A program made the position numbers and the translations under genes. From Stenomitos frigidus ULC18 (GTDB taxonomy: Bacteria; Cyanobacteriota; Cyanobacteriia; Leptolyngbyales; Leptolyngbyaceae), in contig NZ_PVWK01000109.1 of NCBI RefSeq assembly GCF_003003795.1, forward strand, positions 1-41,450: a stretch of 41,450 nucleotides of DNA, read 5' to 3'. Positions 11,586 to 37,082 of this stretch are shown here, one piece after another; position 1 is the first letter of the stretch; each line of letters opens with the position of its first letter. Under the pieces are notes generated by a model, which was not told the DNA's origin, searched no databases, and saw only the letters and a program-made list of their open reading frames with translations.

Positions 11586-11604
11586 CAGCGTATTTCCTGG
11601 CATA

Positions 11605-11651
11605 GAAAAGCCCCTGGGCGTCTGTCCGTGTTTCGACTCCAGGGGCTTTTC
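11605..11651 (-). terminator. Strong hairpin just upstream of the hypothetical gene
   Basis: GAAAAGCCCCTGG (11605-11617) and CCAGGGGCTTTTC (11639-11651) are perfectly complementary over 13 bp around a 21-base loop. The A-tract on one side and the T-tract on the other give it the look of a bidirectional intrinsic terminator. On the minus strand it would end read-through from the nitrile hydratase genes, or act as an attenuator in the leader of the gene at 11040-11585. Confidence 0.6.
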
Positions 11652-11736
11652 AGTTCTACATAGCTCCTCACACCAATTAGTATAGCGCTTCAGGCCTTGC
11701 CCGTCTACTAACCTTAAGCTCGATCGCTCCGTTCCT

Positions 11737-20476: not shown

Positions 20477-21316
20477 TTAATCGTCCGCTGTAAAGTAGCG
20501 ATCGAGGAAATTGAGTGCATGATTCCGCAACTCAAAATATTCAGGTGATTCTCGCAGCTGTTGGCGATCGCGAGGATGGGAAAAGGGCACTTCGAGAATT
20601 TCGCCGATTTTGGCAGAGGGGCCGTTCGTCATCATGACGATGCGATCGGACATATAAAGGGCTTCATCCACGTCATGAGTTACCATCAACACAGCCTGAC
20701 GCTGGCTCTCCCAGATATTCAGTACCTGTCGTTGCAACTTACCGCGAGTCAGGGCATCCAGTGCCCCAAAGGGTTCATCCATTAGCAGCATTTTGGGGCG
20801 GATGGCCAGCGCACGGGCAATGCCAACTCGCTGTTTCATACCGCCCGAAATTTCATCGGGATATTTATGCGCAGCGGCTGTCAAGTTCACCATTGCCAGA
20901 TGTTCATTCACGATTTGCGCTTTTTCGCTGCTGGAAAGCCCTTTCAGCACTTCATCTACCGCCAGGCGCACATTGTCTCGCACTGTCAGCCATGGTAACA
21001 GCGAATATTGTTGAAAGACCATCATGCGATCGCATCCCGGCTTGCGAACTTCTTTCCCTTCCAGCGTTACGAGCCCAGACGTCGATCGCTCTAACCCTGC
21101 CACGATTTTTAACAAGGTCGATTTACCACAGCCAGAATGCCCAATCAAGCAAACAAATTCATCTTCTCGCACGGTGAGATTAATGTTATCCAGCACGACA
21201 AATTCACCCTTGTCTGAAGTTGGATAGGCCTTAGTCAAATTTTCGATGACCAAAAAATCAACATTGACAGGCTTGTTTGGGTTTGTATCTGATGAGAAGA
21301 GCGTTGATTTAGTCAT
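20477..21316 (-). CDS. ABC importer ATP-binding protein, NrtD/SsuB type
   Basis: A 279-residue ATPase of the nitrate/sulfonate/bicarbonate importer family: Walker A GHSGCGKST, signature ISGGMKQRV, Walker B MLLMDEP, switch His in MVTHDVDEA. FQQYSLLPWLTVRDNVRLAVDEVL and MTNGPSAKIGEILEVPF are typical of NrtD/CmpD. AAGGAG lies 6 bases before ATG 21316. It is the third gene of a riboswitch-led set (permease, binding protein, ATPase) and would power that importer. It is separate from the CmpC/CmpD pair further right and resembles both. Confidence 0.9.
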   Translation of the reverse strand: MTKSTLFSSDTNPNKPVNVDFLVIENLTKAYPTSDKGEFVVLDNINLTVREDEFVCLIGHSGCGKSTLLKIVAGLERSTSGLVTLEGKEVRKPGCDRMMVFQQYSLLPWLTVRDNVRLAVDEVLKGLSSSEKAQIVNEHLAMVNLTAAAHKYPDEISGGMKQRVGIARALAIRPKMLLMDEPFGALDALTRGKLQRQVLNIWESQRQAVLMVTHDVDEALYMSDRIVMMTNGPSAKIGEILEVPFSHPRDRQQLRESPEYFELRNHALNFLDRYFTADD

Positions 21317-21493: not shown

Positions 21494-22909
21494 CTAGCTC
21501 AGATAAATTCTCGTGGGACGATCGGCGCGAATTTCAAAGCTGTTGAGATAGCCAATGGGATCGCTGGGATCGAAGCCTTTTTTGTCGATAAAAACCTCTG
21601 GGGGTTCGACTTTGAAATCATCCTGAGGGCAAGCAATACCCAGTTCAGCAGCGACTTCGCGATAAATATCCGTTCGCCATGCTTTTTTGGCTAACTCCTC
21701 AGCGTTTTTAGGAAACGTTTTAATTTGACCCCAACGGGCCGCCTGCGTCATCAGCCAGAGGCTGCGCGATCGCCACATGAAGGTGGAATGTTCATTAGGC
21801 AGATGTGGAACGCTGTTAGGAATGTCGAAAAAGAGAGTGGTGTCATCTGCTTTGATAATGCGTTCTTTGCCATCAAAGCCGCCGTAGTTGTACTCACCCA
21901 CGATCGCGGGGCGAGTAAATTTATCAACAGGTCCTTTTTTGGGTTTGGCTCCGGTAAAGGATCGATCCGTAATTAATGTCGCCACTTCTTCTCGGTTTTC
22001 CGGTTTACTGCAATACTGACAGGCTTCAATCATGGCCTTCAGGAGCGATCGATAGGTTTTGGGGTAGTCGGTAATGAAGGATTCCATCACTCCCAGCAGG
22101 CGATCGGGGTGCCCTAACCAGATCTCTTTACCCTGGGCAAACGTGAACCCAACATTGTCGTTCCCGGTAATGGCACGGGTATTCCACGGTTCCGCTACCA
22201 TGTATCCCTGCATGGCACCGATGCGCACATTGGTCACCATTTGAGGTGGTGGAATGATGATGATGCGAAACTCCTTGTCTGGCTCTACGCCTGCTGCTGC
22301 CGCCAGATAGCGAATGAAGTATTCGTAAATAGCCGAACTCAGCACGACTGCCCAGACTCTTTTTTGGGGGGGTTGGCTTTCAAAGAAGTTACGGAACTGC
22401 CGGCCAAATTCCTCCAGGTTGCCGTTGTACTCGTGCCAGGGACGCAAGCCAAAATCCCACATGGCTTTATTCATGGTCATGGCGTTACCGTGACGATGAA
22501 TGGTCATCCCCGCACACAGAGGCGCATGGCGTGCGCCTTCGGCTCCAATTCTGGCGTTGGTCACTGCGCCTGATACTACCGGGGACGCATCCAAACGACC
22601 GAAAATGAGTCCATCGCGAGAGGTTGCCCAGCTTGCTTCACGGTTGAGATGGACGTTTAACCCATATTTGCGGAAAAACCCTTTCTTCCAGGCGATCGCA
22701 AAGGGTGCACAATCGTTCACGGGTACATAGCCAACCGTAATGTCCGGCTTTTCCAGCTCGCCAGGATTAACCACTTGTTTGATCGCTCTGGCTTCTTCCG
22801 TGAGACCCTTAGCAGAGCGATCGGCGTTAATTGCACAGGATGACAATGCGGCTCCCGCTGCCGTGACACCCATGCCCAGCACGAACTTTCGTCGCGTCCA
22901 GTGATTCAT
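21494..22909 (-). CDS. Tat-exported ABC substrate-binding protein, NrtA/CmpA family
   Basis: A 471-residue periplasmic binding protein. The N-terminus has a twin-arginine motif (RRKFVLGMG), a hydrophobic stretch and a lipobox-like LSSC, so it is probably a Tat-exported lipoprotein. The body follows the NrtA/CmpA fold: VGYVPVNDCAPFAIAWKKGFF, PPPQMVTNVRIGAMQGYMVAEPWNTRA and the closing DPIGYLNSFEIRAD. It resembles the solute-binding-like domain of NrtC/CmpC more than CmpA: AEPWN replaces the CmpA GDPWP motif. The ligand cannot be named with confidence; nitrate, bicarbonate, a sulfonate or another small anion is possible. ATG 22909 is chosen because an upstream frame reads into tandem repeats. 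Confidence 0.85.
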   Translation of the reverse strand: MNHWTRRKFVLGMGVTAAGAALSSCAINADRSAKGLTEEARAIKQVVNPGELEKPDITVGYVPVNDCAPFAIAWKKGFFRKYGLNVHLNREASWATSRDGLIFGRLDASPVVSGAVTNARIGAEGARHAPLCAGMTIHRHGNAMTMNKAMWDFGLRPWHEYNGNLEEFGRQFRNFFESQPPQKRVWAVVLSSAIYEYFIRYLAAAAGVEPDKEFRIIIIPPPQMVTNVRIGAMQGYMVAEPWNTRAITGNDNVGFTFAQGKEIWLGHPDRLLGVMESFITDYPKTYRSLLKAMIEACQYCSKPENREEVATLITDRSFTGAKPKKGPVDKFTRPAIVGEYNYGGFDGKERIIKADDTTLFFDIPNSVPHLPNEHSTFMWRSRSLWLMTQAARWGQIKTFPKNAEELAKKAWRTDIYREVAAELGIACPQDDFKVEPPEVFIDKKGFDPSDPIGYLNSFEIRADRPTRIYLS

Positions 22910-23011
22910 GGCGTTATTGATGGTGAGGTGTGAGGTGTGAGGTGTAAGGAAACCTAAAGGCTCAAAGCTCACTCTTTAGCTTTTAGCCTTCAGCCTTTAG
23001 CTTTTAGCCTT

Positions 23012-23869
23012 TTAAAGATTGGCTGCTGTCGGCCGTCGATGGGTAATCCAAATTTGCAATTGACCGATGGCCATGTCGAGCAACATGCCAGTGAAGCCAA
23101 TGACAAAGACTGCCAGAAAAACAGAACTCAAGTTTAGGCGGCTCCATTCATCCCACACAAAGAAACCGATCCCCACGCCACCAGTCAGCATTTCTACGGC
23201 AACAATAACGAGCCACGCAATGCCCAGGCTAATTCTCAGTCCGGTAAAAATGTAAGGCAGGCTGGCAGGCAAGATGATCTTAACAACCTGTCTCCACCGC
23301 GGCATTTCTAAGACCCGTGACACATCCAAATAGTCTTGAGGAACGCTAGAGACACCTAAAGCGGTATTGATGATGGTAGGCCATAGGGATGTGATAAAAA
23401 TCACGAAAATGGCAGATGGATCGGCAAGGTTGAAAATGGCCAAGGCAATGGGCAACCAGGCTAGTGGCGATACAGGCTTAAAAATTTGAATCATTGGATT
23501 CAAGGCCAGCATCACCGGGCGAGACATGCCGATCAAAAAACCAACTGGAATCGCGACTGCCGCTCCCAGCAGAAAGCCCAACAGCACTCGACGCAGGCTA
23601 GCTAGTAACAGCCAACCAATGCCCAGATCTCCCGGACCTCTCCGGTAGAAAGGGTGCAAAATCAAGTCCAGGTCATTCACCAAGGCTTCGGCTGGAGTCG
23701 GCATCAAGTCGCGCCGGAACAGCGCTAGCACCCACCACAGCAGAATAATACCAAAGAATCCTAGCGCTGGGAGAATCACCGTATCGCGAAGGAGCACAGG
23801 CTTGGTTCGTTGCCAGCTAGCCTGAGCTACAGCAGCAAACACCGCTGCCAAATTTATCTGAAAAATCAT
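23012..23869 (-). CDS. ABC importer permease, NrtB/SsuC type
   Basis: About 285 residues with six hydrophobic segments and the BPD_transp_1 coupling loop: QDYLDVSRVLEMPRWRQVVKIILPASLPYIFTGLRISLGIAW. LPTPAEAL-like and FKPVSPLAWLPIALAIF stretches match NrtB/CmpB. ATG 23869 gives the family length; a GTG at 23929 would add 20 residues and lies closer to the riboswitch. It is the first gene of the importer operon and sits directly behind the c-di-AMP-type leader. Confidence 0.87.
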   Translation of the reverse strand: MIFQINLAAVFAAVAQASWQRTKPVLLRDTVILPALGFFGIILLWWVLALFRRDLMPTPAEALVNDLDLILHPFYRRGPGDLGIGWLLLASLRRVLLGFLLGAAVAIPVGFLIGMSRPVMLALNPMIQIFKPVSPLAWLPIALAIFNLADPSAIFVIFITSLWPTIINTALGVSSVPQDYLDVSRVLEMPRWRQVVKIILPASLPYIFTGLRISLGIAWLVIVAVEMLTGGVGIGFFVWDEWSRLNLSSVFLAVFVIGFTGMLLDMAIGQLQIWITHRRPTAANL

Positions 23870-23964
23870 CTTCAGTGCCTCAGAGTCTAAAGCAGGTACA
23901 AAAAACTGAGCAGTACTAGCAAGAGACACCGATGAGCCTGAAGCATTTAAAATGCTGGCTTTTC

Positions 23965-24132
23965 AGTCCTCCCTCAATGCTGACGGGGTTAGCTGACGGG
24001 CTAGGGCTGAGAGATGCCCTCCATGGAAAGGATAAAGTATGAAGGATAAAGGATTATTTTGTGTACCTTTAGCCCTTAACCGTTTCAATGGTTCGCCCCA
24101 AGGTTTGGGTCCTCCGCTCCATTGCATGCCGA
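23965..24132 (-). promoter_or_regulatory. Probable c-di-AMP riboswitch (ydaO/yuaA leader)
   Basis: On the minus strand the leader of the importer operon carries, in order, the conserved blocks of the ydaO/yuaA class. GAGCGGAGGACCCA followed by TTGGGGCGAA is near 24079-24118, AAGGGC near 24070, and CCCGTCAGCTAACCCCGTCAGC plus a purine-rich GAGGGAGGA at 23967-24002. CAATG and CATTG flank the core and can pair as a closing stem. In this class c-di-AMP binding usually turns downstream genes off. The leader ends about 40 to 100 bases before the permease start, depending on which start is used. No U-tract terminator is seen, so control may be translational. Boundaries are approximate. Confidence 0.8.
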
Positions 24133-24369
24133 AGCCGCTCTGGCTCTGGCTCAAAATGGATTAAGCTGACTGGCTACAGTTATAGCTATGCAATGTAGCA
24201 TATGATCCTGGGGATCAGGCAATCTTTCTCCGGAAAGACGCTGCGAGGGAGGCAAATAATCACAAGCCATTCGCCCACAGCACTTATACCGATCGCTCGG
24301 GAAGGGTGATCGGTACGTCAAAAGAATATTTTTTCAGCGCTGTTGGACATTGGCTAAACGAGGCACTGA

Positions 24370-27872: not shown

Positions 27873-28763
27873 TTAGGCAACTGATGTCTCGCCTTGCAGC
27901 ATCGCGAGATAATGATCACTGGTTACCCAGGCTTGTTTCTGTTCATTGAGCAGTTCAACCTTGCCGGTATCAAGGTCGTAGTAGGCAGGAATAATCTTCA
28001 ATTTGCCGTCTTTGACGAGCGAAGCCAGGATGGTGGATTTCGCCAGAGCATTAGCCTGATTCTTGGCATTCTGTTTGACCGTTAGCTCAACGTCATTGCC
28101 AACCTCGGCAATCCCTTTCGCTTTCGTTTCTGCCGCAACGGTATCGACCGCAGGCTTAATGTAAGGCACCAGGGTTGGAATCTTGCCTGGATCGGCGGGC
28201 AGCGTAATGCGACCCATCGAGGCGATGATTGCACCACACCGCTCATGCCCGACCGCCAGCAGGATTTTAGAACCAAGCACTAATGTGCCAAACTCTAAGC
28301 TACCAACCTGCTCAGGTGTGGCAATGTTACCCGCAACACGGGCGACAAAGCAGTCACCAATCCCCTGGTCAAAGATTTCTTCAACGGGTACGCGAGAGTC
28401 AGCGCAGCTCAAGAATGCCGCAAACGGAAACTGATCCGCACCCGTTTCAGCTAGACGCGCCCGGTTTTGGCGGGGATGAACCGTTTTGCCTTCTGTGAAG
28501 CGTTTATTGCCTTCCAGCAAAAGTTTGAGCGCCTGATCAGGCGTCATATTCTCTGCATCTGGTCGCTTGAGGGCTGCGGTGTCAGCAGCGGGACTGGTTG
28601 CGGCAACCGGGCTGGCAGCTGGTGCGGTCGCCTGACTGCCCGCTTGATTTGTAGGAGCAGAACTGCAAGCAGTTGTTGCCACGAAACCGACCCCAGCAGC
28701 ACCCAATGCCTTAATTAAATCTCGACGACCAAGACCCAAATTACCGTAAAATCGACGACCCAT
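27873..28763 (-). CDS. Tat-exported beta-carbonic anhydrase
   Basis: A 296-residue beta-class carbonic anhydrase that interconverts CO2 and bicarbonate. Zinc-site residues are Cys120, Asp122 and Arg124 (CADSRVP), His173 and Cys176 (HERCG). The N-terminus has a twin-arginine motif (GRRDLIKALG) and a lipobox-like TTAC, followed by an Ala/Pro/Ser-rich linker to about residue 65, so it should be exported and perhaps lipid-anchored, like the periplasmic EcaB of Synechocystis. GGAGG lies 8 bases before ATG 28763. Between the porin gene and the cmp operon it would fit a role in converting external CO2 to the bicarbonate taken up by CmpABCD, or in recapturing leaked CO2. Confidence 0.93.
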   Translation of the reverse strand: MGRRFYGNLGLGRRDLIKALGAAGVGFVATTACSSAPTNQAGSQATAPAASPVAATSPAADTAALKRPDAENMTPDQALKLLLEGNKRFTEGKTVHPRQNRARLAETGADQFPFAAFLSCADSRVPVEEIFDQGIGDCFVARVAGNIATPEQVGSLEFGTLVLGSKILLAVGHERCGAIIASMGRITLPADPGKIPTLVPYIKPAVDTVAAETKAKGIAEVGNDVELTVKQNAKNQANALAKSTILASLVKDGKLKIIPAYYDLDTGKVELLNEQKQAWVTSDHYLAMLQGETSVA

Positions 28764-31344: not shown

Positions 31345-32193
31345 TTACTCTACATCGTCGTGGGCAAAGCGGTTGTAGAGGAAATCAAGGGCATAGTTCC
31401 GCAGATTGTAGAATTTTGGGTCTTCCATAATCCGAGCGCGATCGCGGGGGCGAGGGAACGGAATCGTCAACACTTCCCCAATGTTGGCAGAGGGGCCGTT
31501 GGTCATCATCACCAGACGATCGGCGAGGAACAGTGCCTCGTCGATGTCATGGGTGATCATCAACACGGTGCAGCGGTGTTCGTTCCAGATGGTCAGTAGC
31601 TCTTCCTGGAGTTCTTCTTTGGTGATGGCATCCAGCGCACCAAAGGGTTCATCCAAGATCAGCACTTCGGGACGAATGGCCAGGGCACGAGCGATCGACA
31701 CGCGCTGTTTCATACCACCAGAGAGTTGGGGTGGTTTTTTGTCAGCAGCTTCGGTCAAACCCACCATATTCAGGTGTTCTTTGACGATCAGAGTCTTTTC
31801 GGCTTTGGACTTTTGGGGATAAACTGAATCGACGCCCAGGTAGATATTCTCGAAGGCAGTGAGCCAGGGCAGCAGCGCATAGCCCTGAAACACGACCATG
31901 CGATCAGGTCCTGGCTCAGTAATCGGCTTGCCATGCAAGCAAACGCTGCCAATAGTAGGTTTAGAGAACCCACCCACCATATTCAACAAAGTGGTTTTGC
32001 CGCAGCCAGAGTGACCGATCACACAGATGAATTCACCTTCTTGAACGGTCAGGTTGACTTTTTCGAGCACCGTGTAGGTGCCCGTCGGCGTGGGATAGAT
32101 TTTGGACACATCCTCAATGACCAGAAAAGGAGCCTGACCACTTAGATGCTGGGATTGACTAGCTTGGTCTACTGTGTCGCTTAACGTTTGCAT
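31345..32193 (-). CDS. cmpD: Bicarbonate ABC transporter ATP-binding protein CmpD
   Basis: The 282-residue second ATPase of the BCT1 bicarbonate importer. Walker A is GHSGCGKTT, the signature LSGGMKQRV, Walker B LILDEP and the switch His ITHDIDEA; it ends YNRFAHDDVE. It pairs with the ATPase half of CmpC under the CmpB membrane ring. It is called Cmp rather than Nrt because the binding protein of the same operon is CmpA-like. It is the last gene of the operon, 93 bases after cmpC. A remnant of a near-copy is at 27591-27788. Confidence 0.9.
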   Translation of the reverse strand: MQTLSDTVDQASQSQHLSGQAPFLVIEDVSKIYPTPTGTYTVLEKVNLTVQEGEFICVIGHSGCGKTTLLNMVGGFSKPTIGSVCLHGKPITEPGPDRMVVFQGYALLPWLTAFENIYLGVDSVYPQKSKAEKTLIVKEHLNMVGLTEAADKKPPQLSGGMKQRVSIARALAIRPEVLILDEPFGALDAITKEELQEELLTIWNEHRCTVLMITHDIDEALFLADRLVMMTNGPSANIGEVLTIPFPRPRDRARIMEDPKFYNLRNYALDFLYNRFAHDDVE

Positions 32194-32286
32194 GGTTCAG
32201 AAGGTAAGGATGAATTTGGAAGAAAGAGTTTTGGGTTTTGAGTGATGAGTTTTGAAGTAGTGTCCTCAATTCAACACTCAAAATAA

Positions 32287-34281
32287 CTAACCCGCTTTTG
32301 CCAAAGCAGCGTCCAGCACCACTTCTGCCATGTAGACATCGTGCTTGATCGCCAAGCTATTCAAGTACCCGATCGGGTCTTCGGCGTTAAAGGTGACGCC
32401 ATCAAACAGTTGCACTGGCCCACGGCTATAGGTTATATCGCTCAGCCCCAGTTCCCGCGCTGCGGTGCTAAACACATTCACGCGGCAAACCCGCTCTAGA
32501 ATTTCGACCCAGTTGCGGGGGAAGGGGGTGTTCCCCCAACGCGCGAGCTGGGTCATGATCCAGAGGTGTTCGGTACGACTGGGGCGATTGACGCTGGTGC
32601 CGTAGAACTGATGGTGGGCGTATTCACGCTCGGTATGTTCGGTGAGCGAGGTCGGAATACCAAGCTGGATGTATTCCAAGTCCGTGCTGAGATATTCACG
32701 GCGGGAGAGAATCTGGCGAATTTCTTCGCTGTTGTTTTCATCCATGCAGTACTGGCAGGCTTCCAGCAGGGCTTTAACCAGTGCAATGTGGGTGTTGGGG
32801 TAGGCAAGCGCCCAGTCTTCCCGCACACCCAGCACTTTGCCGGGGTGACCCGACCAGATTTCGAGATCTGTGGCGATCGTATAACCAATCCCTTCCACGG
32901 CTGCCCGCAAGTTCCACGGTTCACCCACACAATAGCCATCAATGTTGCCGCTCTGGAGGTTGGACACCATCTGCGCCGGGGGAATCGTGTTGAGCGAAAC
33001 ATCGTGATCGGGGTCGATCGCGCCTGCTGCCAGCCAGTAGCGCAACAGTAAATTGTGCATAGAAGCGGGGTGCACCATGCCGAAGGTATGGCGCTTATCG
33101 GGGGTTTCCAACAACATGCGCTTCAGATCATTCAGAGTATGCACACCCTGTTCATAAAAGCGCTTATCGAGGGTGATGGCGTTGCCGTTGCGCGTCATGG
33201 TGAGCGAACTCACGATGGGCAACGGTTTGTTGTTCATTCCACCGAGAGTGAGCCACACGGGCATCCCGGAAGGCATTTGAGCGCCATCGAGGTGCCCACC
33301 CGCGATCCCATCTTGAATGCCACGCCAACTGGATTCACGCACCAGACTAACTTCATCTAGCCCATGCTTAGTGAAAAAGCCTTTTTCGTGGGCAACGGCG
33401 AGGGGGGCGCAGGCCGTCAGGGGGACAAAGCCAATCTCCAGGTTGATTTTCTCCAGTCCGTGGCGGGCAATGACGCCTTTTTTGCGGGCACGCAGTTGCT
33501 TGATCCGCTTTTGCTGGTTGAGAAAGTAGATGATTTCGCTGCGATAGCTGTAGTAACTGGGGTGGTTGATGACTTCCAGTCGCTTGCGGGGTCGTGGAAT
33601 ATCGACTTCCAGAATTTGCCCGATGTTGGAGGCTGGGCCGTTGGTGAGCATGACCACGCGATCGCTCAGCAGCAGCGCTTCATCCACATCGTGAGTCACC
33701 ATCAGGCAGGTGACTTTGCTTTCTTCGCAAATCTGCATCAACTGCTCTTGCATGTTGCCCCGTGTGAGCGCATCCAACGCACCAAAGGGTTCATCCAGCA
33801 GCAGCAGTTTGGGACGAATGGCTAGGGCACGGGCGATCGCCACCCGTTGCTTCATGCCACCCGACAGTTGAGCGGGTGGTTTATCCACAGCATGACTTAG
33901 ACCGACCATTTTAATGTGGTGGTCGATGATGTCTTGCCGCTCAGCCGCCGGTAGGTGGCTCAGCACTTCATCCACTGCGAGGGCAATATTCTGCCGCACG
34001 GTCATCCAGGGCAACAGTGAATAGTTTTGGAACACCACCATGCGATCGGGTCCCGGCCCTGTCACGGGCTGGTCACCTAGCATGACAGTGCCTTCTGTGG
34101 GGCGATCGAGACCAGCGAAAATATTCAGCAGGGTGGACTTACCGCAGCCAGAGTGACCAATGAGGGAAACAAATTCACCCTCTTTCATCTCTAGCCCAAT
34201 CCCTTCTAGGGCGACATAAGTGCCGCCGCCCGTTAGGGGAAAAATCTTATCAATTTTATCGACAGCAACGTAAACAGACAT
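32287..34281 (-). CDS. cmpC: Bicarbonate ABC transporter ATPase/solute-binding fusion CmpC
   Basis: A 664-residue two-part protein. Residues 1 to about 255 form an ABC ATPase (GHSGCGKST, LSGGMKQRV, LLLLDEP, MVTHDVDEA). After a basic linker (QQKRIKQLRARKKG), residues about 280-664 form a CmpA/NrtA-like domain: EIGFVPLTACAPLAVAHEKGFF, PPAQMVSNLQSGNIDGYCVGEPWN, DPIGYLNSLAIKHD. In NrtC the equivalent domain is cytoplasmic and mediates inhibition by ammonium or nitrogen status; in CmpC a regulatory role is likely but less defined. This ATPase-binding-domain fusion is the hallmark of Nrt/Cmp systems. Its C-terminal half resembles the stand-alone binding protein at 21494-22909. Confidence 0.92.
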   Translation of the reverse strand: MSVYVAVDKIDKIFPLTGGGTYVALEGIGLEMKEGEFVSLIGHSGCGKSTLLNIFAGLDRPTEGTVMLGDQPVTGPGPDRMVVFQNYSLLPWMTVRQNIALAVDEVLSHLPAAERQDIIDHHIKMVGLSHAVDKPPAQLSGGMKQRVAIARALAIRPKLLLLDEPFGALDALTRGNMQEQLMQICEESKVTCLMVTHDVDEALLLSDRVVMLTNGPASNIGQILEVDIPRPRKRLEVINHPSYYSYRSEIIYFLNQQKRIKQLRARKKGVIARHGLEKINLEIGFVPLTACAPLAVAHEKGFFTKHGLDEVSLVRESSWRGIQDGIAGGHLDGAQMPSGMPVWLTLGGMNNKPLPIVSSLTMTRNGNAITLDKRFYEQGVHTLNDLKRMLLETPDKRHTFGMVHPASMHNLLLRYWLAAGAIDPDHDVSLNTIPPAQMVSNLQSGNIDGYCVGEPWNLRAAVEGIGYTIATDLEIWSGHPGKVLGVREDWALAYPNTHIALVKALLEACQYCMDENNSEEIRQILSRREYLSTDLEYIQLGIPTSLTEHTEREYAHHQFYGTSVNRPSRTEHLWIMTQLARWGNTPFPRNWVEILERVCRVNVFSTAARELGLSDITYSRGPVQLFDGVTFNAEDPIGYLNSLAIKHDVYMAEVVLDAALAKAG

Positions 34282-34394
34282 GGCAGTTAAACTCAGTTAC
34301 TCGGTGGACAGGTGAACAAAATTAGAGCGATGCGTCATGAGTCATCGGTGATTGGAAATGAGCAGCCAATTCAAAACTCAAAACTTCTAACGTT

Positions 34395-35234
34395 CTACTT
34401 TTGCTCTGCTGGCACAACCAGGGTCGCGATAAACGACACAAGCCGATCAAGCACTAAACCGACCAAACCGATATAAACCAGAGCGATGATGATGTCGCCA
34501 ATTTTGTTGCTGTTGTAAGCGTCCCAAATAAAGAAGCCGATCCCAACACCACCGACTAGCATTTCAGCCGCAATAATCGCCAACCAAGACAAACCAATCC
34601 CAATTCTTAGACCGGTGAAGATATAAGGAACAGTAGCGGGGAAGACAATCTTCGTGAAGTACTTAAACCTGGACAGTTTCAACACCTTCGCAACGTTGTT
34701 GTAGTCTTGCGGAATTTGGCGCACACCCACAGCCGTGTTGATCAAGATCGGCCAAACAGCGGTAATGAAGATCACGAAGATCGCTGCAGGTTCGTTCTTT
34801 TGAATGGCTGCAAGTGAGAGGGGTAACCATGCCAAAGGCGGAATCGTCCGCAAGAGTTGGAAGATGGGGTCAAGCGCGCGATACATCAAGGAACTAACGC
34901 CAATGACCATACCCAGCGCAATACCCACAACGGCAGATAAGAAGTAGCCCTGAGCAACCCGACCAAGGCTCGCAAGTAGCTGTAAACCCAGCCCCTTGTT
35001 GATGTCGCCTTCGTCATAAAACGGATTGAAGATGAGCTTGCGGATATCTGGGTCGGATGCCATCTGTAGGGGCGAAGGCAAGGTTGCGCTTTCACCTTGT
35101 ATTCTGACAAACAGTTCCCACAACGCTAGCAAAACGAAGAGCGCGATCGCTGGCGGTGTGATGTTCTTCAGAATATTCTGAACGTGATCCGGCTTAAACG
35201 GATTCTTTGCCGGAGTTGCAGCATTAGCAGTCAT
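34395..35234 (-). CDS. cmpB: Bicarbonate ABC transporter permease CmpB
   Basis: The 279-residue inner-membrane subunit with about six hydrophobic segments and the coupling loop QDYNNVAKVLKLSRFKYFTKIVFPATVPYIFTGLRIGIGLSW. GGGAG lies 7 bases before ATG 35234. It forms the dimeric channel of BCT1. The gap to cmpA upstream is 297 bases and holds several hairpins, which may allow different expression of the abundant binding protein and this subunit. Confidence 0.92.
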   Translation of the reverse strand: MTANAATPAKNPFKPDHVQNILKNITPPAIALFVLLALWELFVRIQGESATLPSPLQMASDPDIRKLIFNPFYDEGDINKGLGLQLLASLGRVAQGYFLSAVVGIALGMVIGVSSLMYRALDPIFQLLRTIPPLAWLPLSLAAIQKNEPAAIFVIFITAVWPILINTAVGVRQIPQDYNNVAKVLKLSRFKYFTKIVFPATVPYIFTGLRIGIGLSWLAIIAAEMLVGGVGIGFFIWDAYNSNKIGDIIIALVYIGLVGLVLDRLVSFIATLVVPAEQK

Positions 35235-35287
35235 TTGAGTCTCCCTATCTTTGTGTTGCCCGTATGGTCTTTAACGTAAAAAATAAA

Positions 35288-35520
35288 GGCGTTGCTAAAA
35301 ACGCCAAACATCAGTCACCGTTGCGAATGCTGCGACAAACACGCCACTTGCCTCGTCATGTGGCTGAGTGAGCATCACCCACTCAGCCACACCGGATCGA
35401 CTAACTTTGGTTGCACTGTTGACAGCCCACGAGTGGGCTGTAGAGATCCCCCCTAGCCCCCCTTCAAAAGGGGGGAACCATCCGGAAGTCCCCCTTCTTA
35501 AGGGGGATTTAGGGGGATCT
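35288..35520 (-). repeat. Series of hairpins and a foldback repeat between cmpA and cmpB
   Basis: Four structures occur. GGCGTT/AACGCC lies at 35288-35305. GTGGCTGAGTG/CACTCAGCCAC lies at 35360-35390, an 11-bp perfect stem. ACAGCCCA/TGGGCTGT lies near 35422-35441. A foldback repeat from about 35445 to 35520 has arms AGATCCCCCC and GGGGGATCT and inner CCCCC/GGGGG pairs. The last is a common intergenic repeat type in cyanobacteria. Confidence 0.8.
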
Positions 35521-35531
35521 CCGAACCTTTC

Positions 35532-36878
35532 CTAAGCAACCTTCTTGACTTTGAGCGCCTTCAGATAAGCTGAAGGATCTTTCGGGTCAAACTTGACGCC
35601 ATCGTAGAAGGTTTCAACGCCGCGAGAAGTCTCGGTGGGAATATCCGCAGCGGCAATACCGGCTTCTTTCGCCGCTTCTTTCCACAGGTCTTCCCGGTTG
35701 ACCGCATCCACAATTTTCTTGGTATCAGTATCACCGGGCAGGAAGCCCCAGCGCACATTCTCAGTCAAGAACCACAAGTCATGACTCTTGTAGGGATAGG
35801 AAACACTGCCCTTGCCATCCTTCCAGTAGAGCGGTCCCTTGTTCTTGTCTTTGACATCCGGCTGACCATCGCCCATAGCGTAATTGCCTTCCATGGGGGG
35901 CAACATCAAGTCAGCTTTGACGTTGATATACTGCTTCTTCGCCAGAATTTCCACCGCTTCCTTGCGGTTCTCAGCAACATCCAGCCACTGTTGGGCTTCC
36001 ATGATTGCTTTCAACAAGGCTTTGGTGGTGTTGGGGTGCTTGTCTACCCAGTCTGCACGCATCGCAAAGTATTCTTCGGGGTGAAATTCCCACATCTGCG
36101 CGGTCAAGATTGCCATGTAGCCAATTTTGTCTGCCAGAATCCGGTAAGGCCATGGGTCGCCGGTGCTGAATCCATCCATCGTACCAACTTTCATGTTGGC
36201 AACGGTCTGAGCCGGTGGGATGACAATCAGCTTGACATCAGTGTCGGGATTAACGCCCAGGGAACCCAGAAAATAGCGAATCCAAAGCTCCTGGTTGGAT
36301 TGGGGGAAGGTGTGTGCTGCCGTAAAGGGCGTGCCAGCCGCTTTGAGGCTTTCGATATAAGCCTTGCCTTTTGCTTGACCATCTTTCATGTTGAAGCCTT
36401 TGCCAAGGTGTTTGTTGGCAATGGCAATCCCATTGGCGTGGGTGATCAACTGCGCCAAGGTGTACATCGGAATTTTCTTATTGCCCTTGGTGATTTTGCC
36501 TTCCGAAATCAGGTGAGGCATGGGCATTTGATATTGCCCACCATCGATGCCGCCGCCTTCGGTACCGATTTCGGTGTTGTCCCGCAGCACGCCCCAAGAG
36601 GATTGCTTGATGACCATGGCATCCTTCACCCCATGCTTCTCAAAAAAGCCTTTTTCTTTGGCAATAATCAGGGGTGCCGCTTCAAAAATGGGGATAAAGC
36701 CCAGACGCACCTCGGTTGTTTCCAATCCGCCGCCACCACCCGTCGCTGCGGCTGGGCTAGCAACTGGACTGGCACCACCGCTAGTTGACGGAGCACTGGC
36801 GCAACCCTTGATCGCCGCAGAACCCAGCGCTGCCACCCCGGCAGTATAAATAAACTTGCGTCTTGAAAATTGAGTCAT
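35532..36878 (-). CDS. cmpA: Bicarbonate-binding lipoprotein CmpA
   Basis: The 448-residue high-affinity binding protein of the BCT1 transporter. The N-terminus has a Tat motif (SRRKFIYTAG) and lipobox IKGC, then a Pro/Ala/Gly linker. CmpA-type signatures are GGGIDGGQYQMPMPHLISEG and FSTGDPWPYRI; NrtA proteins have other residues there. SYPYKSHDLWFLTENVRWG and SRGVETFYDGV close the family match. AGGAG lies 6 bases before ATG 36878. It heads the operon cmpA-cmpB-cmpC-cmpD, normally induced by low CO2 through the LysR-type regulator CmpR; no cmpR gene is in the window. Confidence 0.94.
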   Translation of the reverse strand: MTQFSRRKFIYTAGVAALGSAAIKGCASAPSTSGGASPVASPAAATGGGGGLETTEVRLGFIPIFEAAPLIIAKEKGFFEKHGVKDAMVIKQSSWGVLRDNTEIGTEGGGIDGGQYQMPMPHLISEGKITKGNKKIPMYTLAQLITHANGIAIANKHLGKGFNMKDGQAKGKAYIESLKAAGTPFTAAHTFPQSNQELWIRYFLGSLGVNPDTDVKLIVIPPAQTVANMKVGTMDGFSTGDPWPYRILADKIGYMAILTAQMWEFHPEEYFAMRADWVDKHPNTTKALLKAIMEAQQWLDVAENRKEAVEILAKKQYINVKADLMLPPMEGNYAMGDGQPDVKDKNKGPLYWKDGKGSVSYPYKSHDLWFLTENVRWGFLPGDTDTKKIVDAVNREDLWKEAAKEAGIAAADIPTETSRGVETFYDGVKFDPKDPSAYLKALKVKKVA

Positions 36879-37082
36879 GGAATCTCCTACCAGCCCGACA
36901 TAGAACTGCAAACAAAAAGGGGTTAAGACAAAACTTTCAGGTTCAAGATGAAACCATCAACCGCATGAGACCGTTGCCAGGTTGAGCCACCCGCAAACAC
37001 CCAAACGCTGAGGTTTACCCCCTAGAAGCAAGTAAAGCGATCAACAAAGATATCGATATTACTCTATTGATTCTATAAACTT

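Follow-up and report, generated by a model that had tools for sequence, protein, structure and literature searches.

The importer locus

The window analysed here is a stretch of 41,450 nucleotides from Stenomitos frigidus ULC18. On its minus strand a riboswitch is followed by permease, binding-protein and ATPase genes in one row. The permease gene (23012-23929, minus strand) is of the NrtB type, scoring 241.8 bits against model TIGR01183 (cut-off 209.05). The substrate-binding protein gene (21494-22972, minus strand) likely starts at ATG 22909, and its product, a PF13379 (NMT1_2) member of the family that includes NrtA, CmpA and the NrtC domain, has an N-terminus in which a twin-arginine motif (RRKF) and a lipobox (LSSC) can be read. 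The NrtD-type ATPase gene (20477-21316, minus strand) encodes 279 residues with no C-terminal regulatory domain and scores 373.1 bits against TIGR01184 (NrtC/D; cut-off 291.8); the next gene on the same strand encodes a response regulator/histidine kinase. Permease, ATPase and a predicted exported binding protein in one row make up the general gene set of an ABC importer, and the preliminary description of these genes as NrtABD-type agrees with the TIGR01183, PF13379 and TIGR01184 matches.

The cassette shares homologous permease, binding protein and ATPase, and the export of the binding protein (predicted here), with the NrtABCD and CmpABCD (BCT1) transporters. It differs from them in having the permease first and a single ATPase gene, where those systems have two, and in lacking the fused C-terminal regulatory domain. 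In the available part of PMC13249358 the regulatory domain of CmpC is reported to sense nitrate. As the cassette ATPase is without such an NrtC/CmpC control domain, control of this importer appears to have been placed in the RNA.

The window also contains a complete CmpABCD-type operon (31345-36911, minus strand), consisting of binding protein, permease, ATPase with regulatory domain, and second ATPase; its CmpA-type binding protein (35532-36911, minus strand) has CmpA as best PDB match (E 1e-167). In the same stretch as this operon lies a gene for a carbonic-anhydrase-like protein with a twin-arginine-like start (27873-28763, minus strand), which scores 157.8 bits against a subfamily model, below the cut-off of 221. 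Two further RNAs were found on the minus strand, IsrR, the antisense regulator of isiA (473-659, 169.8 bits), and Cyano-1 (11602-11677, 46.7 bits, narrowly over the cut-off of 41). Genome-wide, Stenomitos frigidus ULC18 has separate Nrt-type and Cmp-type operons and a diadenylate cyclase gene.

The riboswitch and its expression platform

The leader had been assigned to the ydaO/yuaA class from conserved blocks in the right order, and a search with the RF00379 covariance model had been proposed. Scanning against all of Rfam with cmscan gave a significant RF00379 (c-di-AMP, ydaO/yuaA) match at 23964-24146 of the minus strand, with 58.7 bits (gathering score 38 bits) and an E value of 3e-11, that spans the full model (1-134) and has the named blocks in the expected order. 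The leader is thus a riboswitch of this class, a known one, in a plausible place upstream of the permease. Alignment of the window leader with six others, five from relatives and one from the second copy in the same genome, located the conserved 5' strand of P1, GTCAGCTTAATC, at about 24170-24159 (minus strand), upstream of the Rfam 5' end, which falls some 25 nt short of the 5' edge of the aptamer. The aptamer therefore extends over about 23964-24172 and does not end at 24132, as first described. The likely P2 stem, TCCATT/AATGGA, was read off the same seven-leader alignment, and the aptamer core differs little from the Tildeniella one. Of the two RF00379 matches in the Stenomitos frigidus ULC18 genome, one lies before the importer and the other precedes a gene for a 223-residue universal stress protein (Usp); the genome search gave no match at the CmpABCD- or NrtABCD-type operons.

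In its full-length match above the cut-off, its conserved blocks and its site before transporter genes, the leader resembles other RF00379 members; the importer group differs in its expression platform. Leaders were compared for 48 of 50 cassette loci, the window included, these being the ones with a called permease (G237 and G229 were omitted), and 40 of the 48 entered the platform alignment. Those left out had an unresolved start or odd spacing (G145, G278, G332, G033, G045 and G191, with spacings of 408, 227, 145, 4, 4 and 36 nt), a long insertion or a deviating leader (G155 and G058). A conserved hairpin of 12 pairs (23924-23971, minus strand) has a 5' strand overlapping the purine-rich 3' tail of the aptamer. 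In the 40 leaders 94.3% of its cells are paired, and in six of the 12 pairs both partners have changed in a compensatory manner; the pairing percentages are biased upward because G332 and G058, whose own folds are without the hairpin, are among the eight omitted leaders. RNAalifold independently recovered ten of the twelve pairs. A second short helix of the GGUAC/GUACC type (23895-23917, minus strand; four pairs in the window) is paired in 87.2% of cells over the 40 leaders and is absent from the RNAalifold consensus. The two helices together have 92.2% of cells paired, and shifting the structure by 1 to 3 columns lowers this to 34.5-43.8%. This control leans toward the two-helix structure because that structure was drawn from one of the compared sequences.

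Downstream of these helices, a Shine-Dalgarno GAGG (23881-23878) precedes ATG 23869. From the comparison of the 48 leaders, this ATG (285 residues) is more probably the permease start than the GTG at 23929 (305 residues). For the window leader, both the minimum free energy fold and the centroid fold contain a predicted hairpin (23876-23894, minus strand) that would mask the GAGG; the leader fold as a whole is not unusually stable (z -1.41, with 10 of 100 shuffles as good). An alternative structure in which GUACC pairs with the Shine-Dalgarno was sketched as a possibility, and no claim is built on it.

Inspection of the 48 leaders by eye showed that the platform hairpin is never followed directly by five or more consecutive T; such runs, where present, are mostly found in loops. 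A pattern scan of the window likewise gave no terminator-like site on the minus strand between aptamer and permease, and on these two grounds the idea of transcription termination within the leader was set aside. Because a U-run is missing behind a hairpin that merges with the aptamer 3' tail, and a hairpin is predicted over the Shine-Dalgarno, control at the level of translation is favoured. Characterised members of the RF00379 class turn expression down when c-di-AMP rises. By analogy, c-di-AMP most likely lowers expression of the importer too.

Conservation of the pairing and its neighbours

The breadth of this arrangement was assessed in 386 cyanobacterial genomes drawn from the phylum, of which 93 contain RF00379, with 141 matches in all. 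A search with the binding protein found 55 genomes with E values of at most 1e-120. Fifty-four of these hold close relatives, namely the window's own protein and 53 at 62-82% identity, and all 54 fall within the 93 riboswitch-bearing genomes. The remaining one, G118, holds a more distant protein of 44% identity. In 49 of the 54 the binding-protein match is preceded, on its own strand, by a riboswitch at a distance of 904-1253 nt; 48 of these riboswitches score above the cut-off, and the one before the G233 cassette is below it, at 29.5 bits. Elsewhere the riboswitch is cut by the contig start (G070, 35.9 bits), or the cassette is divided between two contig ends, riboswitch and permease on one and the binding protein on the other (G039 and G008). 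Two genomes of one genus, G048 and G064, have the cassette with no RF00379 match; what remains in their leaders is the 5' P1 sequence, the core being lost. This reads as a recent loss, and since both keep the cassette, riboswitch control is not indispensable. Named relatives numbered 80, the closest being Tildeniella nuda with a binding protein 92% identical; among the 40 that were searched, every one has the riboswitch upstream. The two counts are not independent because some assemblies are common to both (by coordinates, for example, G403 is G300 and G410 is G185). The survey of other cyanobacteria that had been suggested thus revealed an old, conserved and near-strict pairing of riboswitch and importer, not one peculiar to Stenomitos frigidus ULC18.

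Decay of the arrangement does occur, and a window match that is itself a decayed, non-functional relic would fit with the remnants in G048 and G064 and with two riboswitches that stand before broken cassettes. One of the latter (L048, in G320) precedes a 116-residue frame that by eye resembles a permease remnant, and the other (L096, in G174) precedes an ATPase fragment, permease and binding protein being gone. The window aptamer, however, keeps its conserved blocks and scores 58.7 bits, with a core close to that of Tildeniella, and such decay is very improbable here.

The genes downstream of the riboswitch were analysed for 138 of the 141 matches; G233 and G129, both below the cut-off, were omitted, and G149:C14 (42.9 bits) was counted only in the tally of upstream riboswitches. 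With targets grouped by BLAST and family names taken from one representative each, the first recognised gene is this importer cassette behind 50 of the 138 matches, a Usp gene behind 41 and a CitMHS/ArsB-type carrier gene behind 30. A glycosyltransferase follows in four cases, a sodium/proton exchanger in three, and other genes or nothing in ten. The importer cassette is thus one of three main targets of the class in cyanobacteria. The four glycosyltransferase loci (L060, L104, L119 and L128) have a gene of about 425 codons whose family was checked for one of the four, and the enzyme presumably resembles the sucrose type. In two other loci, L037 (G300, 82 bits) and L103 (G334, 66.4 bits), no same-strand frame of at least 150 residues starts within 1.3 kb of the riboswitch, and small frames of 67 and 82 residues follow. 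A further riboswitch (L135, in G286) stands before a short C-terminal remnant that by eye resembles a CitMHS-type carrier. Matches to MIR5649 and MIR7504 in L243 and L244 were dismissed: they are below their gathering scores and on both strands, as when an inverted repeat hits a microRNA model.

The three target families also occur side by side. Of the 50 cassette loci, 22 have a same-strand Usp gene and eight a CitMHS-type carrier gene in the sequence that was fetched; in six of these eight, the permease, binding-protein and ATPase genes are followed by Usp and then CitMHS. A second riboswitch is found at most 4.5 kb past the binding-protein gene in 16 of the 54 numbered genomes and 25 of the 40 named records. 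This clustering suggests that the importer serves the same process as the Usp and CitMHS genes. The CitMHS link is not general, since the carrier is missing from the stretch in 42 of the 50 loci and a search of the Stenomitos frigidus ULC18 genome, run without a positive control, gave no match. In Synechocystis, slr0753, a putative chloride efflux transporter, is reported as a c-di-AMP riboswitch target in the part of PMC10117731 available; the importer belongs to a different gene family that would be regulated in parallel. The CitMHS-type carriers (PF03600) are assumed here to be perhaps relatives of that Synechocystis protein.

The binding pocket and the role of the importer

The best PDB matches of the binding protein are the C-terminal regulatory domains of NrtC and CmpC (8wm7, 9u9z and others; E 3e-69 to 8e-69), followed by NrtA (6e-47) and CmpA (1e-43). 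With these regulatory domains it shares GNA and EPWN stretches; it differs from them as a free, predicted exported protein in which the pocket His and Lys are replaced. In a tree of 16 proteins a branch supported at 100/100 separates the ten cassette proteins that were sampled from all others, NrtA, CmpA and the regulatory domains included, and the binding protein thus belongs to a clade of its own. Nearest to this clade is the G118 protein (90/87). That genome (locus L247) has a free binding protein, 43-44% identical, in an Nrt-like operon with the permease first and a full NrtC-type subunit; the protein keeps nitrate-type residues, and the operon possibly lies near the origin of the cassette. 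A structure predicted from a 16-row alignment had a mean pLDDT of 46.8, too poor for a fold search; L155 (stop codon), L177, L183, L213 and L219 had been dropped from the protein alignment.

Residues of the pocket could be compared by alignment. In the portion of PMC13204499 available, nitrate is contacted in NrtA by Trp102, Gln155, His196, Gly240 and Lys269. In the 54 orthologues these columns are invariably Trp, Asn, Tyr, Ala and Arg, so that only the Trp is kept and the other four are replaced. The NrtA-type protein of Stenomitos frigidus ULC18 has Trp, Gln, His, Gly and Lys, its CmpC and NrtC domains, like G118, have Trp, Asn, His, Gly and Lys, and the CmpA-type protein of the window has Trp, Asn, Gln, Gly and Glu. 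For CmpA, a calcium/bicarbonate site of Glu271, Gln155 and Gln198 is given in the accessible text of PMC13249358. The Glu and Gln of the CmpA-type protein in the window are matched by Arg and Tyr in the cassette proteins, in columns that presumably correspond to Glu271 and Gln198. The Gln155 column is uncertain because CmpA, said to use this residue too, shows Asn there. The Tyr, Ala and Arg columns fall in well-aligned motifs, and Tyr216, Ala260 and Arg291 are fixed in 54 of 54. A ligand other than that of CmpA had been proposed from the motif AEPWN; the idea gains from the three fixed residues, whereas AEPWN by itself is weak evidence because the NrtA-type protein of the same organism and the NrtC/CmpC regulatory domains carry GEPWN.

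These comparisons bear on what is carried. An auxiliary nitrate/nitrite or bicarbonate transporter, through which c-di-AMP would tune carbon or nitrogen uptake and not osmotic balance, would account for the NrtB and NrtC/D models being over their cut-offs and for the Nrt and Cmp proteins being the closest solved relatives. The CmpABCD-type operon and carbonic-anhydrase-like gene in the window could hint at inorganic carbon, and the review PMC10117731, in the part available, describes upregulation of bicarbonate transporters in a dacA mutant under high CO2. Against this, NrtA His196, Gly240 and Lys269 have become Tyr, Ala and Arg in every orthologue, and the Gln and Glu of CmpA at the first and last of these columns are missing from them. 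The genome, moreover, has its separate Nrt-type and Cmp-type operons, and the riboswitch has Usp and CitMHS genes as neighbours. Since the pocket set differs from that of NrtA in all 54, nitrate or bicarbonate as cargo is unlikely, and the nutritional reading as a whole is rather improbable. The fixed pocket, which keeps a positive charge, instead points to one conserved and probably anionic cargo that is neither of these, and the Arg that replaces the nitrate-contacting lysine speaks for an anion or for a solute bearing an acidic group.

In Firmicutes, c-di-AMP shuts off osmolyte uptake. A cargo of the taurine or betaine type, an organic compatible solute or a sulfonate whose uptake c-di-AMP would shut off in the same manner, would suit the glycosyltransferase found behind four of 138 riboswitches. 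Nelson 2013, according to the available parts of PMC5986932 and PMC4284465, also placed the cyanobacterial targets of these riboswitches among genes for making and transporting osmoprotectants, and transporters under the RF00379 class may all serve osmoregulation according to the part of PMC3766115 available. The binding protein, however, has SsuA_fam as its only NCBIfam match, and its score there (23 bits) is far below the cut-off of 163.5. Its relatives of solved structure bind inorganic anions, and replacement of Gly by Ala and of His by Tyr would be more likely to tighten the pocket. A compatible solute or sulfonate of this type is considered unlikely.

The reading that appears probable, if well short of certain, is that a c-di-AMP riboswitch sets translation of an anion-type ABC importer for osmotic and ion balance. 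The leader would adjust translation of the permease, the Tat-exported lipoprotein and the ATPase, most likely shutting it off as c-di-AMP goes up. The importer, of the Nrt/Cmp kind and in a separate clade, would most likely carry an anion or acidic-group solute, judged by homology and a few pocket positions, and not nitrate or bicarbonate. This cargo may add to the osmotic and ion balance of the cell, with its uptake set by the same signal as the Usp proteins and CitMHS-type carriers. A bolder proposal is a shared cyanobacterial c-di-AMP regulon for anion balance, in which a high-affinity ABC importer would be set against CitMHS-type efflux, with Usp partners, all under riboswitches; together with a cargo that is a small anion new to ABC importers, chloride being the boldest guess, this is speculative and, taken jointly, doubtful.

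In the literature searched, seen in partial texts and with Nelson 2013 and Mantovani 2022 outside it, the importer was not recognised as a c-di-AMP riboswitch target, and the near-strict pairing with this importer clade, the Usp/CitMHS linkage and the invariant pocket were not found. The pairing links a widespread cyanobacterial importer to one second messenger, c-di-AMP, and, being nearly strict, makes the riboswitch a functional clue to the cargo. Under the bolder regulon proposal, an Nrt/Cmp scaffold would have passed from a nutritional role to one in osmotic ion balance via three changes of pocket residues, and control of the importer would have moved from a nitrate-sensing protein domain to RNA. 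The invariant pocket makes the question of the cargo testable with one purified protein, and its identity would tell what c-di-AMP manages in phototrophs beyond potassium.
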